This document shows, one piece after another, positions 27,164 through 60,301 of a stretch of 64,000 bases of DNA. The stretch comes from a bacterium (GTDB lineage Bacteria > Bacteroidota > Ignavibacteria > Kapaibacteriales > UBA2268), in NCBI GenBank assembly GCA_024711295.1, contig JANJTB010000031.1, forward strand, positions 62,001 to 126,000, read 5' to 3'. Under the pieces are notes generated by a model that was not told the DNA's origin, made no database searches, and saw only the letters and a program-made list of their open reading frames with translations. Position 1 is the first letter of the stretch. Every line of letters begins with the position of its first letter. Position numbers and translations under genes: made by a program.

Positions 27164-28357
27164 CTATCTTAAATTCTTGAAACCAAATTCTATCTCATCT
27201 GCTATACGCTTATAAACTTCATCGAATGTACCCTCGCCACTTATTATTGTAGAGCCGTGCAATTCAGTATATTTCTTAATAACAGGTACTGTTCTTTCTT
27301 CGTGATACTGAAGTCTTTTGATAATTGTTGACATACTTTCATCATAAGGCATCTTACTGTCTGTTTTACTTCGAATCTCTAATCGTTTGATTAATTCCAA
27401 AATTGGTACTTCAATTTCAATTACTTTAGTAATGGATGAAGTGTGCTTTCTTAATAATCCATCCAAAATATAAGATTGAACAAGTGTTCGTGGAAATCCC
27501 TTAAAAATAAATCCCTTGGCACCATTAAGATTTTGAAATTTCTTCTCAATTAATTGAACTACTATATCATCCGGAAAATTTTGACCGATAATACCATGTT
27601 CGAGCATTCCTTTCTCGTATAACTCCAAAATTTTCTTACCTAATTTAGTATTTTCAGACGCTTCCTTTGAAAGCAATTCACCTGTTGCAATAAATTCTAA
27701 ATCAAACTGCTTAGCAAGCGCTTTCCCTTGAGATGATCTTCCACTTCCAGGATAGCCAAATAGTACTATGTTTAGTAAGGACTTACTAAGTTCCTGCTTG
27801 ACAATTTTTGTAATATCAGTTTTGACATCCTCAATTCCATTTCTGCCGTCAACAGATTGATAAATACCTTTCTCTTTATAGAATTGAAGCACAGGTATAG
27901 TTTTTTCGTAATATTCCTTTAGTCTTGTTCTAATGACAGTTTCATTATCATCTGATCTACCAGATGTTTTACCACGATTAAGCAATCTTTGGATTGATTC
28001 TTCTTCAGGCAATTCAATGCTGATTAAACAGTTTAACTGAGTATTCAATTTAATCATTAACCCTTCGAGGATATATGCCTGTATATATGTTCTCGGAAAA
28101 CCATCGAATAAAAATCCATTATAACCCGGATTATCTGTTATTGATTTTTCGATAATTTGTACAATAATTTCATCAGAAACTAACCCACCTTGAGCTATAA
28201 TACTTTTAGCTTCTTCGCCGATTTTGGTGCCATCAGCAATTTCTTTTCTTAACAAATCACCTGTAGAAATATAAAATAAGTTATATTTTTTAATTAAAAA
28301 CTCTGATTGAGTACCTTTGCCTGCCCCCGGAGGTCCAAACAACGCAACATTTAACAT
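27164..28357 (-). CDS. adk: tandem adenylate kinase with inactive second domain
   Basis: A 397-residue protein made of two adenylate kinase-like domains. Domain 1 (residues 1 to about 190) is intact: GPPGAGKGTQ P-loop, FDGFPRT, and RGKTSGRSDD with the lid arginines. It should interconvert ATP+AMP and 2 ADP. Domain 2 (about 195-397) keeps the fold, but its P-loop is GYPGSGRSSQ (catalytic Lys to Arg), FDGFPR is FKGFPR, and the lid motif reads RSKTDSK. It is probably inactive and may be regulatory or structural. Most bacterial Adk proteins are about 215 residues, so this duplication is unusual. It lies 65 bases upstream of the BNR-protein start and may share its transcript. Confidence 0.85.
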   Translation of the reverse strand: MLNVALFGPPGAGKGTQSEFLIKKYNLFYISTGDLLRKEIADGTKIGEEAKSIIAQGGLVSDEIIVQIIEKSITDNPGYNGFLFDGFPRTYIQAYILEGLMIKLNTQLNCLISIELPEEESIQRLLNRGKTSGRSDDNETVIRTRLKEYYEKTIPVLQFYKEKGIYQSVDGRNGIEDVKTDITKIVKQELSKSLLNIVLFGYPGSGRSSQGKALAKQFDLEFIATGELLSKEASENTKLGKKILELYEKGMLEHGIIGQNFPDDIVVQLIEKKFQNLNGAKGFIFKGFPRTLVQSYILDGLLRKHTSSITKVIEIEVPILELIKRLEIRSKTDSKMPYDESMSTIIKRLQYHEERTVPVIKKYTELHGSTIISGEGTFDEVYKRIADEIEFGFKNLR

Positions 28358-52060: not shown

Positions 52061-52092
52061 AAAAAAAAGGCTGCCATTTTTGGTGACAGCCC
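52061..52092 (-). terminator. terminator of the redox cluster
   Basis: On the minus strand a GGCTG/CAGCC stem (52087-52091 with 52069-52073), extended by an inner CC/GG pair, is followed by T8. It lies 29 bases after the cytochrome c stop codon. Confidence 0.75.
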
Positions 52093-52120: not shown

Positions 52121-52474
52121 TTATTTAGTTTCTGCTTTCAATGACATTAACCATTCTAACATGATTTTAAGGTCTTCATCGCTACCTTTGAAAGGAACTG
52201 GATGTTTTTTACCATTTAATACTTCGTCTTTTTTCATATACTTAGTAAAGAATTCCAAGTCTTTGTCAGCAGTAAGCGTAGATAAATCAGGTACTTTATC
52301 TGATTTTTTCTTAGCTTCGATGCTGGCAGCAGTTACACTATGGCAAGCAGCACATTTAGCGTCTTCAAAAATAGTCTTACCGTCTTTGCCTTCAGCAAAA
52401 GAGAATTGAACAAATACTGTAGCTAAAAAGCCCATCAAAGCTAAAATAGCAACTGTTGATTTGAATGTTTTCAT
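52121..52474 (-). CDS. small periplasmic monohaem cytochrome c
   Basis: A 117-residue protein: signal peptide (to about A27), then one haem c site C41-A-A-C-H45 in a class I cytochrome layout. Candidate axial methionines lie in the C-terminal half (MKKDEV, MLEWLM). A strong AAGGAG site precedes the ATG. It is the last gene of a minus-strand group with a Rieske protein, a haem-bearing porin and a hexaheme lipoprotein, and is a likely soluble electron shuttle in the periplasm. Its terminal oxidase or reductase partner is not in the window. Confidence 0.88.
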   Translation of the reverse strand: MKTFKSTVAILALMGFLATVFVQFSFAEGKDGKTIFEDAKCAACHSVTAASIEAKKKSDKVPDLSTLTADKDLEFFTKYMKKDEVLNGKKHPVPFKGSDEDLKIMLEWLMSLKAETK

Positions 52475-52510
52475 ATTTAAAATCTCCTTAAAAAAAAATG
52501 TTTTATAAAT

Positions 52511-52993
52511 TTAACTAGAAATAGTCAGTATTTTTTTTCCAGCATCATATTCTGTTTTATATAAAGTCATGTCGGTCGCTGTCGAAAATCCTTTGTTATC
52601 AACTGACTTGCCGTCCACAAAAGAAAAAGTAGCTCCGTGACACAGACAAGTCATTAAACCATCAGACGTATCAGGTAGCGAAACGTTACAATTCTGATGT
52701 CTGCACAATGCATCCATAACAGTAAAGGTGCCGTCAGCATTATGTTTGATTATTACAGGATCACCCCCATTCACCTTGTCAAATCTTAATACTTCGTGAT
52801 TTCCGGGAGTCTGCAATTTTGGGTATTGAGTTAAATCAACATCAAATGAATCACCTGGTTTTGGTTTTGGTGGCAATTCATCTTGCTCGCAAGAATTAAT
52901 TACACTCGAAAAAGCACCTGCAAACAACCCAAAACCAGCAACTTTACCTGTAGCTTTAAGGAATTCTCTGCGTTTATTATATTTATTAGTCAT
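52511..52993 (-). CDS. Tat-exported Rieske iron-sulfur protein
   Basis: A 160-residue protein. The ATG at 52993 is chosen because AGGGTG precedes it; a longer frame would add 26 non-homologous residues. The N-terminus carries a twin-arginine signal (KRREFLK) and a lipobox-like VINSC. The 2Fe-2S ligands are C97/H99 and C116/H119, spaced CxH-x16-CxxH, and C102 and C118 fit the disulfide pair of cytochrome-bc-type Rieske proteins. The usual Ser and Tyr that raise redox potential (CHGSxY) read CHGATF, so the potential may be lower. No cytochrome b gene is adjacent, so it may serve the outer-membrane cytochromes upstream. Confidence 0.88.
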   Translation of the reverse strand: MTNKYNKRREFLKATGKVAGFGLFAGAFSSVINSCEQDELPPKPKPGDSFDVDLTQYPKLQTPGNHEVLRFDKVNGGDPVIIKHNADGTFTVMDALCRHQNCNVSLPDTSDGLMTCLCHGATFSFVDGKSVDNKGFSTATDMTLYKTEYDAGKKILTISS

Positions 52994-53006
52994 AATCATC
53001 ACCCTA

Positions 53007-54233
53007 TTAATAAAATACATGTACTTGGAAAGCCCATTGAGCTGCATATCCTTCAAGATGAGTTTTATCATTGATTCGATATTCAGGCAGAAAAGCTATG
53101 TAAGGCAAAATATATGCCTTAGCACCAAATACATAATGGTTTGTTGTAAAATCACGGTTATCGGCGATATATTTGGTATTACCAGTTTCGAGACGTGCGT
53201 ATGCAATTAATGGCTCAAATACCTGATAATTTAGTTCTACAGTAAAGTTATTTGCTTCCAATAAGGTTTGTTTAACTGTACGCATATACTCAGTCATCAA
53301 AGCAAGTTTATCAACTAATCCTATATTAAAAAACACGTTACCTATATAGTAGTGTTCATTACCGAAATAAATGCCATTGTCAGTCTTTAATGGTGAATTA
53401 AAGAATAATGTACCACCTGCGAAAACATTTATACCAGGAGCGAGTTCTGGAGGAAATAATACTACTCTAAACACGCTTGACATGTGGTTACCATTAACAG
53501 GTGCTCCTGCACCCGAAAGTCCAATAGGAATTGATGTTTTTGATAAATTTTCAGAGCTGAACATTCCGAAACTGACGCCAAGCCATGATAATGCTTCGTA
53601 GTCAATCTGGAATCCTAACTCAGCATAATCATCAGGAACTACGGGAATACCTCTCTGACCTGAAGCAATTTGTCTGTTAAGCATGGTGTGGTCTTCGTAT
53701 TTTGTGCCTATCGTCGGTTGGAAATACCCTACTCTTATTATAGGTAAATCTTCACCTGGTTTAATAATAGCACTTGCTGCACCCGGTTGCTGACCAGGGT
53801 ACCTCATAATTGAGTGAATATCGTAACCAAAATTGTAAAGACCTTCGATTGTAAGCCACTCAGTAGGTTCGTAAGCTAAATAATTAGACCATTGCATTAC
53901 CATGTGCTTTCTTTCTGAAACACCTGATTGTGAGCCCCATCGAGCTGTTTGATAACGAAAGTCAAAACCATAAGTAAATTTATCGTCAAGAAATTGGTTA
54001 GTTTCCTGTGTTAAGTCAAAAAGACCTCTAAGACCAATAGACTCAGGATCAATCAATGCACTCTGATTTCTTGACATCCAACCTGGATTATTCCTGATAC
54101 CACCACCTTGAGTGTTAATATGGCAGCCGGTACATTTAGTACCGTAAGATTGAATTAACGAATATTGCGGTCTTGATTGAACATCCAATACCAGCAGTAC
54201 CGTTAGAATTATTATCAGAAAATATTTTTTCAT
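53007..54233 (-). CDS. outer-membrane porin-like protein with N-terminal haem c site
   Basis: A 408-residue exported protein. The signal peptide (to about residue 19) is followed at once by RPQYSLIQSYGTKCTGCH, a single haem c motif (C34, C37, H38) and GGGIRNNPGW. The remaining 340 residues alternate amphipathic strands as in a 14- to 18-strand barrel and end in aromatic VHVFY, as expected of outer-membrane proteins. The layout is that of Cyc2-type cytochrome-porin fusions and of a broader RPxYAxQxGxxCxxCH family near electron-transfer genes. The haem plug would let electrons pass the outer membrane. It is followed 13 bases later by the Rieske gene. Confidence 0.75.
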   Translation of the reverse strand: MKKYFLIIILTVLLVLDVQSRPQYSLIQSYGTKCTGCHINTQGGGIRNNPGWMSRNQSALIDPESIGLRGLFDLTQETNQFLDDKFTYGFDFRYQTARWGSQSGVSERKHMVMQWSNYLAYEPTEWLTIEGLYNFGYDIHSIMRYPGQQPGAASAIIKPGEDLPIIRVGYFQPTIGTKYEDHTMLNRQIASGQRGIPVVPDDYAELGFQIDYEALSWLGVSFGMFSSENLSKTSIPIGLSGAGAPVNGNHMSSVFRVVLFPPELAPGINVFAGGTLFFNSPLKTDNGIYFGNEHYYIGNVFFNIGLVDKLALMTEYMRTVKQTLLEANNFTVELNYQVFEPLIAYARLETGNTKYIADNRDFTTNHYVFGAKAYILPYIAFLPEYRINDKTHLEGYAAQWAFQVHVFY

Positions 54234-54290
54234 ATTTATCTCTTGTTATTTTCTAAATATTAAACGAAAATTTTGAAAAAAAGTAACACG

Positions 54291-54330
54291 GATGAAAGAG
54301 AGAAGCCTTTATAAAACTCCTCTCTTCATC
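54291..54330 (-). other. hairpin between the hexaheme lipoprotein and cytochrome-porin genes
   Basis: GATGAAAGAGAG (54291-54302) pairs with CTCTCTTCATC (54320-54330), with one bulged A. On the minus strand a T7 run follows 8 bases later. It may partly terminate transcription, so that the hexaheme gene is made in excess of the downstream genes. Confidence 0.5.
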
Positions 54331-54342
54331 ATGTATCTTTCT

Positions 54343-55410
54343 TTATTGCAATGCATTAATAGCATTTTTGATTACAGCTTTGATGTACTTAGGATTGTGT
54401 ATACCCCAGCTTTGGTCAGCTGCAGCCCAACGATAGTTGTACAAAGCAGCAGCATGTAATGTGGGGTATGAGCCTGGTACAGCTGCATCATGTTCCCAAT
54501 GACCATGACTGCTTGTTGTGTCAATCATTTTCTTGGTAACAAGAATTTCTCTTAATTGGGTTAAGAGATTTCTTGTTTCTGTTTGTGTACCATAAAAGTC
54601 AAAGTTTGTAACATTAGCATCAGTATGACAACCTTTACAAACAGATATATTATCAACTAAAGTAGTACCATTATCATATTTCATTTTCATTGTATGACCA
54701 CCAGCCTGAGCGCCATAAGCTTTGCCCATGTGACAATCAACACAAGAATTTTGCAATACGTTCATGTGAACAACAGTTTTATTGTATGGTTCGGGTCCGG
54801 GTATTTCGAAAGCACCATTACCAACAAATGCATTGGCTGCTGAACTGTAGTGAGGACCAAAATGTGATGAACCAACTCTATAAGTTGAGTCTGTTTTGGT
54901 AATGTCAATCATTGGTGATAAAGCCCTGGTTTGGTGACACATAGCACAAACGCTTCCTTTACCAAAATTGTGAGTTGTATTTGACATACGGAATTTTACA
55001 TCACCGGTATAAGTAAGTTCCCAATCTGTCTGATCGCTTTTTCTATGAACATGGTGACAGGTACGACAATTTTGACCTGTTGGATTCATAACTTCTGCTT
55101 TTGTGTTAAATTCACCGGAAGAAGCGACTTCAAGGAAACCGTCATTGGTGTGGCATGGCGCACATGTAGCAGCTGAACGCTCAAAAGAAGTACCCTTACC
55201 ATGTTGTGAGTTTTCCCATTGCAATTGTTTTGCAAATAACAGATTAGTTGAGTTATGACAAGTCGCGCATTGCTCTTGGCCATCTTTACCATCAGTACCG
55301 GCTAATCCGTCTTTTCCTGCAGGACCTTCGCAAGATGTTATAAACAATGTTACACTTGCTAATGTTGCTACCAGCAACATCGAAAAAATCTTTGACAAAA
55401 AGTTATTCAT
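54343..55410 (-). CDS. hexaheme c-type cytochrome lipoprotein with collagen-like stalk
   Basis: A 355-residue protein. A signal peptide ends in the lipobox ITSC27. The next residues are about six Gly-X-Y triplets (EGPAGKDGLAGTDGKDG), a short collagen-like stalk. Six CxxCH haem sites follow at about residues 48, 83, 115, 155, 223 and 258, with extra histidines (HHVH, THNFG, HFGPHY) as likely distal ligands. The C-terminal 70 residues (SSHGHWEHD, HAAALYNYRWAA) resemble the family of multihaem cytochromes with a histidine-rich tail. It is probably an outer-membrane-anchored electron carrier. GGAG precedes the ATG. It is the first gene of the redox cluster. Confidence 0.88.
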   Translation of the reverse strand: MNNFLSKIFSMLLVATLASVTLFITSCEGPAGKDGLAGTDGKDGQEQCATCHNSTNLLFAKQLQWENSQHGKGTSFERSAATCAPCHTNDGFLEVASSGEFNTKAEVMNPTGQNCRTCHHVHRKSDQTDWELTYTGDVKFRMSNTTHNFGKGSVCAMCHQTRALSPMIDITKTDSTYRVGSSHFGPHYSSAANAFVGNGAFEIPGPEPYNKTVVHMNVLQNSCVDCHMGKAYGAQAGGHTMKMKYDNGTTLVDNISVCKGCHTDANVTNFDFYGTQTETRNLLTQLREILVTKKMIDTTSSHGHWEHDAAVPGSYPTLHAAALYNYRWAAADQSWGIHNPKYIKAVIKNAINALQ

Positions 55411-55824
55411 AATAACTCCAAATAAATGATTAATACAATTGTTTTTAATTACTATTAAAATTAAAACTTTGTAAATTTACTCAATACTTTTATTAAATCA
55501 AAATTAATTTTTGTTTAATATTTAGGATATTCTATATATTGTTTTATCTTCATCAATAAATGTAGTTGAAAGCGTTTTTATTATAACTTAATCGAATCAA
55601 TATATACTCTATTTATTTAATATTCAGTCACTTAGTAGCATTTATTTATATTATTAATATATACTGTTTATTAGTCCCATTTCTGAATTAATTATTTTTC
55701 TACATATTACAACATATTACATATCAACAAATGTACACTCTTTACTAATTAAATTTGTCAATAAAAATCATCATAAAATTTTAGTTGCTTCTAATATATT
55801 AAATAGCTTATTAAAATTAATGTT
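55411..55824. other. 414-base A+T-rich intergenic region
   Basis: No gene is seen on either strand. A minus-strand TAATTTTG (55499-55506) could be a -7 element for the redox cluster, leaving an 88-base leader. A short direct repeat (ACATATTACA, near 55702 and 55711) lies further up and might bind a regulator. The rest is A+T-rich sequence with no structure I can name. Confidence 0.35.
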
Positions 55825-56872: not shown

Positions 56873-57652
56873 ATGAAACAACCCTTAAGTGTTTGCTATA
56901 TATCCTATAATGAAAGCGATAGAATTGCAGTTTCAATTAATTCGGTAATTGACTTCGCCACTCAAATAGTAGTTATTGACTCATACTCAAGCGATTCTAC
57001 CAAAGAAATTGCAGAAAATTTAGGAGCTGAAGTTTTCTTATCGGAATGGAAAGGTTTTGTTGAGCAAAAGAATTTTGCTATCAACAAAGCAAATCAGGAT
57101 TGGATTCTGTTGCTCGATTGTGACGAAGTAGTAAGTGATGAATTAAAGCAAAGTATTATAGATGCTATAATAAATGACAAAATTGGATTTTATAGTATTA
57201 ATAGGAAAACTCATTATTTGGGAAAACTTATGAAATATTCATGGCAGCCGGACAGGGTTGTCAGATTATTGCATAAATCACTTAATCCCAAATTTACAGG
57301 TGAATTGGTACATGAAAAAATTGATATGAAAGATTATAAATCTAGCACGTTATCCGGTAACCTGATTCATTATTCTTACAGAAATATCAGGGAGCATTTT
57401 GAGAAAACCACTAAATACTCTGAATTGTCTGCTTTAAGTTACCAAAAAATAGGAAAAAAATCAAAATTAGTCAACCTAATAATTAATCCTTTATTTGCAT
57501 TTATTAACATGTACATCTTAAAATTAGGAATATTGGACGGATGGCGAGGAATAATCGCTGCTTTCAGCAGTATGACAGGTACATTTTTGAAATATGCAAT
57601 TTTGAGGGAACTAAATCAAACAACCAGTGCACACTTGCCAAAATCAAAATGA
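56873..57652 (+). CDS. WaaE/KdtX-like family 2 glycosyltransferase
   Basis: A 259-residue GT-A glycosyltransferase. It has SVCYISYNESDRIAVSINSV, DSYSSDSTKEIAENLGAEV, the D-x-D-like DCDEVVSDEL near residue 85, and a C-terminal amphipathic helix region (GWRGIIAAFSSMTGTFLKYA). This matches lipopolysaccharide core beta-1,4-glucosyltransferases of the WaaE/KdtX/LgtF type. It probably adds glucose or a similar sugar to the inner core. Its last 37 bases overlap the convergent transposase-like gene, an unusual arrangement for a complete gene. Confidence 0.87.
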   Translation: MKQPLSVCYISYNESDRIAVSINSVIDFATQIVVIDSYSSDSTKEIAENLGAEVFLSEWKGFVEQKNFAINKANQDWILLLDCDEVVSDELKQSIIDAIINDKIGFYSINRKTHYLGKLMKYSWQPDRVVRLLHKSLNPKFTGELVHEKIDMKDYKSSTLSGNLIHYSYRNIREHFEKTTKYSELSALSYQKIGKKSKLVNLIINPLFAFINMYILKLGILDGWRGIIAAFSSMTGTFLKYAILRELNQTTSAHLPKSK

Positions 57653-58752
57653 CATTCATTACTGAATAATGGTAATTCAAGTGACCTCGCAGTTACTTCC
57701 AAAAGTAATTGTTCCAAAAGTTTTGAACTATGTTTGTTAATAGTGTTACTACTAAATCTATGCCTTACATAGCTGTTAAAATCTAATTTAGAATAGTCCT
57801 GAGTATATAATGTAAGTCTTGAAATACCATTTTCATCCTTTAGAAGCATCTGGTTTGCTACCCAGCTATTAACTAAGGGTTGCGGGTCTTCCTTTAGAAG
57901 ATGAAACTTCTCAAATCGTTTTTGAAATAAATTCGGTAAATTGTCATTAAATATTTTAGTTCTGTTTTGTAATCTTTTTTTTACAATATCAAGAAAAAGA
58001 ATCTCTCTTTTGCACAAAAAATCTCTCAACTCAGACTCATCCTTGATACCAAGCTTGTTAGCAATCTTATTGTTTTTCATTGTAAAGTAAACTCTAGAAG
58101 CATCATTAATTAGCTTTTGTGAAGGGGAAACACGCGACAGACAGCATCCAAGTTCTCTATCACGATAGTTCTTATGATAATTTATTTTAAGATCTGATGC
58201 GGGATAAATACTCTTTACTGAAACGATGCTTTTTTCGGATCCGTTTGTAAGAAAAGAATTACTTACGATGCTTCTTTCCTTCAGATTATTTAATAATTCC
58301 ATCCATATATCGACAGTTTCGTCAAAGCACACTTTATAAGCAAGAACAAAACCAGTTAAAGAGTCAATTGCAAATGCAATGTACATTTCATTACAGTCAC
58401 TTCTATTCCAGGAGCAATGGAATTTCTTGCCTGAAAGGTAAATTTGCCTCGGTGTGTGATTATTGACAGACAAATCAACAAACTCATGCCAGTCTGGTGC
58501 TCTTTTCAGGTAGTCTCTTATGATAGTATTTATTCTTGTTGGAGTAGAATGATACTGTTTAGATAATTCACGAATTGTTTTACCATTTAAGTAGTCATGA
58601 GCCATTTTTGGCAAATTCTTAATGTTATGATAATTCGTTTTGCTTGACCAAGTTTTACCACATGTAAAACATCGGTATCTCTGAACTCCCAAAGAAGTTT
58701 GTCCATGACGAATAATATCTGTGCTGCGACAATAAACGCAAGACTTTACCAT
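57616..58752 (-). mobile_element. orphan transposase-derived gene, probably inactive
   Basis: A 378-residue protein (ATG 58752; a TTG four codons earlier is possible). It has an N-terminal zinc ribbon with two CxxC pairs (CVYCRSTD and CFTCGKTW), a helix-turn-helix (LNGKTIRELSKQYHSTPTRI) and a DDE-type core (MYIAFAIDSLTGFVLAYK), as in IS1/ISXO2-like transposases. Two positions where related enzymes carry catalytic Asp read Ser (IYLSGKKF) and Asn (FLTNGSEK). No inverted terminal repeats or target-site duplication were found, and its 3' end overlaps the convergent glycosyltransferase gene by 37 bases. It is therefore either a decayed element or a domesticated DNA-binding protein. Which one is not clear. 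Confidence 0.65.
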
Positions 58753-58958
58753 AATGAAACTCAATCAACAAAAAAATATAATTTTAACAAGAAATTCATT
58801 AAATAATTTACAAATTAAACGAAAAAATAATTATTATCAAAATAATATATATTCATTTCTTGATATTTAGATAAATTATTTTGTATTTTTTTCATAGCAT
58901 ATTTGGGCATAAATTTTGATAATGCTAAATTATATGAAATAATAATACAAAAATTCTA

Positions 58959-59512: not shown

Positions 59513-60301
59513 TTAAGGTTTGTATGCTTCAATATAAGCAGAAATAACAAAATCACTTATGTTGGTATTAGGTACCCACTCCTTCATAAACTCCTTACTT
59601 TCTTCTTTAGGTTCAATTTTGATTTGATCGAAACCACTATTTAACAAATAATTTTTCAATTCAAGTACAGTTGAAGCACCAGATATACATGCCGAGTGAT
59701 AAAAAAGGTCACTCTTGAATTTTTCCGGTATTTCGCCAGATGCTACAACATCAGAAATAGCTAATCTCCCACCCTTTTTTAATACTCTGAAACACTCATC
59801 AAAAACTCTTTGTTTCTCAGGTGATAGATTAATAACACAATTTGAAATAATAACATCTACATAATTATCAGAAATAGGCAAATTCTCTATTTCACCCAAT
59901 CTGAATTCAACATTAGTGAAACCACCCTTTATTACATTATTCCTTGCTTTACTTACCATATCTGGTGTCATATCTACACCAATAACTTTACCGAATTTTC
60001 CAACTTCTTTAGAACATAAAAAAGCATCAAATCCACCACCGCTGCCTAAATCGAGAACGTATTCACCAGTTTTGAGTGAAGCAATGGCTCTTGGATTCCC
60101 GCAACCCAAACCCATATTTGCGCCTTCTGGTACAAATTTAACATCATCATCTGAATATCCCATTCCCAATGACAGACTTGATTCCGAAACAATATTGTTG
60201 GAGGGTGAGCAACATGAATTGCCACCCAAAACATTAAGTGCTACATTTGCGTAATTCTTTCTCACACTAGCTCTGATCAAATCATTTTTATTATCAATCA
60301 T
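59513..60301 (-). CDS. arsM: arsenite methyltransferase
   Basis: A 262-residue SAM-dependent methyltransferase of the ArsM type, which methylates As(III). It has SAM motifs DLGSGGGFDAFL and GVDMTPDMVSKAR, the conserved LGCGNP (C67), ISNCVINL (C155) and SACISGA (C205). The three cysteines correspond to the arsenite-binding set of ArsM, and C30/C31 add an N-terminal pair. Its start overlaps the murF stop as ATGA. Why an arsenic gene should be coupled to cell-wall synthesis is not evident, and no arsR, arsB or arsC is nearby. Confidence 0.9.
   Translation of the reverse strand: MIDNKNDLIRASVRKNYANVALNVLGGNSCCSPSNNIVSESSLSLGMGYSDDDVKFVPEGANMGLGCGNPRAIASLKTGEYVLDLGSGGGFDAFLCSKEVGKFGKVIGVDMTPDMVSKARNNVIKGGFTNVEFRLGEIENLPISDNYVDVIISNCVINLSPEKQRVFDECFRVLKKGGRLAISDVVASGEIPEKFKSDLFYHSACISGASTVLELKNYLLNSGFDQIKIEPKEESKEFMKEWVPNTNISDFVISAYIEAYKP

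Follow-up and report, generated by a model that had tools for sequence, protein, structure and literature searches.

Within a 64,000-nucleotide stretch of the genome of a bacterium of the Ignavibacteria/Kapabacteria kind (contig JANJTB010000031.1; hereafter the window), four consecutive genes on the minus strand likely encode the outer membrane (OM) half of an electron transfer chain, probably a conduit for extracellular respiration. They specify, in order of transcription, a hexahaem c-type cytochrome lipoprotein (HEX), a mono-haem cytochrome fused to a predicted OM barrel (BAR), a Rieske lipoprotein exported by twin-arginine translocation (Tat), here called RIE, and an exported monohaem cytochrome c (CYTC). 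A preliminary description had placed these four genes on one strand and proposed a trans-OM electron transfer cluster without MtrABC. All four are present as stated, and the genome, 3.45 Mb in size with an estimated 100% completeness and 0.29% contamination, has no match to the MtrB/PioB family (PF11854). The proposal itself is supported, as far as sequence, gene order and structure prediction go, by synteny, by a cytochrome b561/13-haem module in relatives, by the sequence profile of BAR and by the match of HEX to OcwA.

The genome survey that the description called for recovered the HEX-BAR-RIE-CYTC order on one strand in 20 genomes of the same family besides the window's. BAR is present in 38 of the 54 genomes of the family and in 39 of the 296 sampled in the phylum; a scan of genome contigs with a single BAR sequence returned only two loci. 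Comparison with same-genus orthologues gave ratios of non-synonymous to synonymous polymorphism (pN/pS) of about 0.2-0.5 for HEX, BAR, RIE and CYTC, indicating that purifying selection acts on all four genes. These ratios, together with the order kept in 20 further genomes, argue that the four-gene set is not a product of chance.

From gene identities, cofactor motifs, synteny, inner membrane homologues, a predicted barrel fold and a remote homology to fused cytochrome-porins, all observed or computed, we infer where the carriers lie and in which order they act, as well as the outer-face position of HEX, the direction in which electrons flow and the substrate. A cytochrome b561-type/13-haem module, whose genes lie elsewhere in the genome, would oxidise quinol at the inner membrane, and electrons would reach the haem plug of BAR across the periplasm by way of CYTC and the membrane-tethered RIE. 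BAR, a one-haem cytochrome-porin, would work in a Cyc2-like manner. HEX, on a collagen-like stalk and with six putative bis-His haems, would then exchange electrons with a mineral, a metal, a humic substance, an electrode or another cell. We favour outward flow over uptake because the partner module is of a quinol-oxidising type, the relatives of HEX are reductase-like and the potential of CYTC is probably low.

Gene layout and transcription

The features of the locus, all on the minus strand, are as follows in the direction of transcription:

55411 to 55824, minus: 414-bp intergenic region 5' of HEX, the expected promoter place, with weak consensus matches only
54343 to 55410, minus: HEX, hexahaem c-type cytochrome lipoprotein of 355 residues, with six CXXCH motifs and a lipobox
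54286 to 54334, minus: stem-loop between HEX and BAR followed by a U-rich stretch, probable terminator or attenuator (z = -4.8)
53007 to 54233, minus: BAR, 408-residue fusion of a mono-haem cytochrome with a predicted 16-strand OM barrel (motif and AlphaFold model)
54120 to 54134, minus: haem-binding motif CTGCH of BAR, residues 34-38
52511 to 52993, minus: RIE, Tat-exported Rieske [2Fe-2S] lipoprotein of 160 residues (Pfam Rieske and motifs)
52958 to 52972, minus: twin-arginine motif RREFL of RIE, residues 8-12 (residue conservation)
52637 to 52705, minus: ligand region of RIE, C97-x-H99 ... C116-x-x-H119, with the C102/C118 disulphide pair
52121 to 52474, minus: CYTC, exported monohaem cytochrome c of 117 residues with one CXXCH (Pfam Cytochrom_C)
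52068 to 52092, minus: intrinsic terminator 3' of CYTC

For RIE, a longer open reading frame (ORF) of 186 residues was rejected as an over-extension and the 160-residue start taken instead. The genes are separated by 109 bp (HEX-BAR), 13 bp (BAR-RIE) and 36 bp (RIE-CYTC), and the distance between HEX and BAR ranges from -14 to 26 bp in some genera, which is consistent with one operon. The cluster had been pictured as a single unit closed by a terminator; the terminator is indeed there (52092-52068), while the single unit has to be tempered by the strong hairpin between HEX and BAR, a feature absent from the preliminary description. Two same-genus genomes (L031 and L125) have hairpins at the corresponding position, that of L031 being a textbook terminator with a U-run. 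This suggests that HEX is probably made separately or in excess; BAR-RIE-CYTC probably lie behind an attenuator or have their own promoter.

BAR, a putative one-haem cytochrome-porin remotely related to Cyc2

BAR has a hydrophobic N-terminus, a single CXXCH and a C-terminal aromatic residue, Y408. Its AlphaFold model has 16 strands with a mean predicted local distance difference test (pLDDT) score of 83.7, and its best matches in the Protein Data Bank (PDB) are porins, including OprP and OprO; porin matches including these two have also been reported for Cyc2 (PMC8406198). Pfam and NCBIfam searches returned no family for BAR, and neither HEX nor BAR gave a match when used as a single-sequence query against the PDB. 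An MtrB-type identity was rejected, as PF11854 is unmatched. C34/C37/H38, R47, G51, R93, M113 and D181 are invariant in 76 BAR homologues and H182 is kept in 93%; the distal ligand of the haem may be M113 or H182.

We compared BAR with same-phylum proteins that carry the published Cyc2 motif, divided into true FARQT Cyc2 (group A3, Chlorobi-type) and FARKY one-haem barrels (group A4). In hhalign, the BAR profile matched the FARKY barrels at 98.1% (E 8e-14, 322 columns) and the FARQT Cyc2 at 60.9% (E 8e-5), against 5.6% for a control of haem-less Pcc porins. By these profiles, BAR appears to belong to a wider set of fused one-haem cytochrome-porins. Like the iron oxidase Cyc2, it has a putative signal peptide, a single N-terminal CXXCH, a length of about 400 residues and a predicted 16-strand phosphate-porin-like barrel (PMC8406198), with P-x-(F/Y)...C-x-x-C-H in the same register; the published features of an N-terminal CXXCH and hydrophobic N-terminus in a protein of at least 365 residues (here 408) and of a C-terminal 16-strand porin barrel (here predicted) are thus found. 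We nevertheless rejected filing BAR as Cyc2 because both defining sequence motifs fail. In the place of AXPXFAR[Q/K][T/Y] upstream of CXXCH, BAR reads SRPQYSLIQSY and its family consensus ALPQFSLL, and a pattern search of the window's genome for this motif found no site. The PXL motif four residues after CXXCH is also absent from BAR (CTGCHINTQGGGIRN), which has CxxCH-x-N-x-x-G-G-x-x-R-N in place of PXL/FAR-type motifs. BAR further differs from Cyc2 in being accompanied by a hexahaem lipoprotein and a Rieske protein. By analogy, we regard it as a remote Cyc2 relative that may work like Cyc2 and is not itself Cyc2.

The FARKY-type one-haem barrels (L188-L207, G160, G296, G283) appear to form a large group close to Cyc2. 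In one family of the phylum a single genome can have several of them, and motif matches also occur in members of the window's family.

HEX, a predicted multihaem electron carrier

In HEX, the lipobox (Cys27) precedes a short collagen-like GXY linker, and six CXXCH motifs lie at residues 48-52, 83-87, 115-119, 155-159, 223-227 and 258-262. The six motifs align across 41 homologues, with a CX3CH variant in a few, and of the spare histidines 70, 122, 187, 239 and 338 are invariant and H215 is at least 90% conserved. As there is one conserved spare histidine per haem, six bis-His, electron-carrying haems are expected, and by its sequence HEX looks like an electron carrier and not a nitrite reductase. 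It contains an MtrC/MtrF domain II/IV (Pfam, 7e-13) and, at its C-terminus, a weaker Cytochrom_C552 match (3.2e-7).

The predicted model of HEX (pLDDT 87.4) has OcwA as its best PDB match (E 1.2e-5, probability 1.00, 20% identity, TM-scores 0.46/0.35), followed at lower rank by NrfA and octahaem reductases and by an undecahaem S-layer cytochrome. The closest solved fold, OcwA of Thermincola (PDB 6i5b), belongs to the NrfA-like fold group and acts as a terminal reductase at the cell surface (PMC6703420). The two proteins differ in that OcwA has nine haems, two of them at five-coordinate sites (PMC6703420), whereas the six haems of HEX all seem to be bis-His, and HEX is a lipoprotein of a Gram-negative bacterium. 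HEX homologues also occur in related bacteria within Ignavibacteria-type clusters of a porin and multihaem cytochromes, among them porin plus 14-haem (Pcc-type) clusters. A second homologue in the window's genome (G000:C11:110766-111809, L114; 40% identical) is isolated next to a murC-like gene, with no redox gene nearby.

RIE and CYTC, putative periplasmic relays

RIE has a Tat motif (RREFLK), a lipobox (Cys35) and a Pfam Rieske domain (3.5e-9). Among 57 Rieske proteins, in which the window's RIE was counted once and a few bc-type proteins from other loci were included, the ligands C97/H99/C116/H119 are 100% conserved; the C102/C118 pair is complete in 33 of these proteins, missing from 23 and half-present in one. 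The Tat residues R8, R9 and F11 of RIE are kept at 93%, 97% and 98%. The disulphide pair thus varies in nature, which offers a ready-made series for studying how Rieske potential is tuned.

It had been noted that this Rieske protein comes without a cytochrome b. This holds genome-wide for the bc type, as the window's genome (100% complete) has no PF00033 match, and we rejected a bc-complex origin of RIE for that reason. The dedicated role proposed for it is likewise supported: six family genomes (L136, L141, L142, L143, L149, L151) have in its place a lipoprotein of about 122 residues, which carries one CXXCH in four of the six. Replacement by a small, often haem-bearing lipoprotein is what one would expect of an electron relay.

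CYTC is a small, class I-like cytochrome (Pfam Cytochrom_C, 4.3e-8). His91, invariant in 30 of 30 sequences, occupies the usual position of the Met ligand of class I cytochromes, which suggests that CYTC is probably bis-His ligated and of low potential.

The inner membrane partner module

The cluster is followed, in about 18 loci and in most of the 20 genomes with the four-gene order, by a gene for a protein with 13 CXXCH motifs and a C-terminal membrane anchor. A cytochrome b561-type protein, either alone (267 residues) or in fusion with a NapC-like domain (about 735 residues, six CXXCH), often comes next. The window has neither the 13-haem nor the b561 gene; homologues lie at other loci of the same genome, namely at C8:123648-125773 (13-haem protein 52% identical, b561 54%) and at C7:194467-200865 (19-haem, 13-haem, b561 and NapC-like parts), in what is a partial inventory of its haem proteins. 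Across 20 relatives, eight have both the 13-haem gene and the HEX-type cluster, none the cluster only, one the 13-haem gene only and 11 neither (Fisher p = 7e-5, with phylogeny not corrected).

Like the CbcL type of quinol oxidase (PMC6295460), the partner loci bring many c-haems together with a membrane domain of the diheme b type (b561/HydC-like). They differ from it in that the 732-residue partner form runs b561 first and then NapC-like, in that the 13-haem anchored protein is separate, and in that the module lies away from the window's locus. One b561/NapC-like gene of the window's genome (L176, G000:C7, 10725-12893) is interrupted by one TAA, leaving ORFs of 184 and 479 residues, and may be a split gene, a pseudogene or an assembly error.

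Cluster variants in the order

Other families of the order have a different arrangement without HEX: BAR, a small membrane protein of about 97 residues, YceI and RIE (L032-L066, e.g., L034 8403-9855). This puts YceI, of a lipid/quinone-binding family, beside a Rieske protein and a haem-porin. In a third BAR subtype (L161-L167), a 150-180-residue protein with one CXXCH precedes BAR and there is mostly no adjacent Rieske gene.

Alternative readings

Several points weigh against an OM conduit formed by these genes. BAR has a single haem, and a continuous haem wire through the membrane is not evident; to cross it, electrons would need HEX or another partner docked near this haem, or a soluble donor or acceptor inside the pore. 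Moreover, the haem domain (residues 12-45) is the low-confidence part of the BAR model. The TM-scores of HEX with OcwA are modest, and the outer-face position of HEX is presumed from its fold and domain relatives. The terminator-like hairpin 3' of HEX means that the four genes may not share a single equal transcript, and the inner membrane module is unlinked to them in the window's genome. Finally, the BAR-RIE-YceI group, which has neither HEX nor the 13-haem protein, implies a use of BAR and RIE that does not need HEX. What stands of the earlier "wire" to the "cell surface" is the electron transfer cluster; both quoted terms exceed the evidence, given the one haem of BAR and the inferred face of HEX.

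The strongest alternative, which we consider rather unlikely, is inward flow: a soluble donor such as Fe(II) would be oxidised at the BAR haem, HEX would extend the range of donors to solids, and RIE and CYTC would pass electrons to alternative complex III or a haem-copper oxidase. BAR is a remote Cyc2/FARKY relative, and a donor-in-pore route has been proposed for Cyc2. Oxygen could serve as the sink, as three COX1 genes and two alternative-complex-III-like NrfD genes are present in the genome, one NrfD lying between two COX1 on C25; RIE also retains the disulphide typical of higher-potential Rieske centres. However, the partner module of the relatives is of a quinol-oxidising type (b561, NapC-like, multihaem), the His-for-Met exchange in CYTC suggests low potential, HEX resembles terminal reductases and BAR is without the FAR and PXL motifs of Cyc2.

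A porin with a periplasmic partner seems to us improbable. In this reading, BAR would admit a soluble small molecule that is reduced or oxidised in the pore or the periplasm, while HEX would lie on the inner leaflet and all electrons would stay within the cell. This would accord with the single haem of BAR, with a sorting of HEX that may go either way, and with the widespread order-level form of BAR, small protein, YceI and RIE without multihaem cytochromes. Yet the fold and domain relatives of HEX are surface cytochromes, and its homologues sit with porin and 14-haem conduits.

It is very unlikely that HEX is an NrfA-like reductase of nitrite or another nitrogen oxide, fed by the other three genes. 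The weak Cytochrom_C552 match and the second-rank fold matches to NrfA and octahaem reductases point that way, but there is no CXXCK, the top fold match is OcwA, and a conserved spare histidine is available to each of the six haems, so that no open catalytic site is expected; we rejected such catalysis on this ligand count (six CXXCH, six spare His). That RIE is a stray bc/b6f-type subunit or oxygenase ferredoxin, here by chance, is hardly credible: its best PDB sequence matches are indeed b6f/bc and dioxygenase Rieske proteins, but the genome has no PF00033 cytochrome b, RIE neighbours BAR across the order and in 20 HEX-type clusters, and its Tat and lipobox signals are present.

Relation to known conduits

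In known OM conduits, either a barrel contains or adjoins multihaem cytochromes (Mtr, Pcc) or a one-haem porin acts alone (Cyc2). If the conduit reading is true, the combination of a Cyc2-like porin with an iron-sulphur relay and a hexahaem lipoprotein of the surface type would represent an intermediate architecture. The locus resembles Mtr and Pcc systems, including the Pcc of Ignavibacterium, in having an OM barrel and an MtrC-domain-like multihaem lipoprotein (PMC4245776), the latter predicted from the sequence of HEX. It differs in that no separate multihaem cytochrome is inserted in the barrel and BAR bears its own haem; where those systems combine a haem-less porin with a distinct multihaem cytochrome in the periplasm, this locus has only the monohaem CYTC for the latter part. 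A Cyc2-like porin, an exchangeable Rieske relay and an OcwA/MtrC-related HEX, with the 13-haem/b561 module completing the chain, could tentatively be set apart as a distinct class of conduit.

Searches of open-access papers gave nothing relevant on a Rieske protein as part of a conduit for extracellular electron transfer, or on such transfer in Kapabacteria. A Rieske lipoprotein in a porin-cytochrome-type conduit is thus apparently a new, unreported part, and the Rieske centre would join the list of components of extracellular respiration. The cluster would also provide an electroactivity marker for a little-cultured lineage, where MtrB-based and many-haem-cluster screens would miss it.

Other genes of the window

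Near the cluster, a transposase-like ORF with an N-terminal zinc-ribbon (57616-58764) overlaps the end of a glycosyltransferase-like gene. A methyltransferase resembling arsenite methyltransferase, with ArsM-like CC motifs, is encoded at 59513-60301. At 27164-28357, a 397-residue protein apparently consists of two adenylate-kinase-like domains in tandem fusion.

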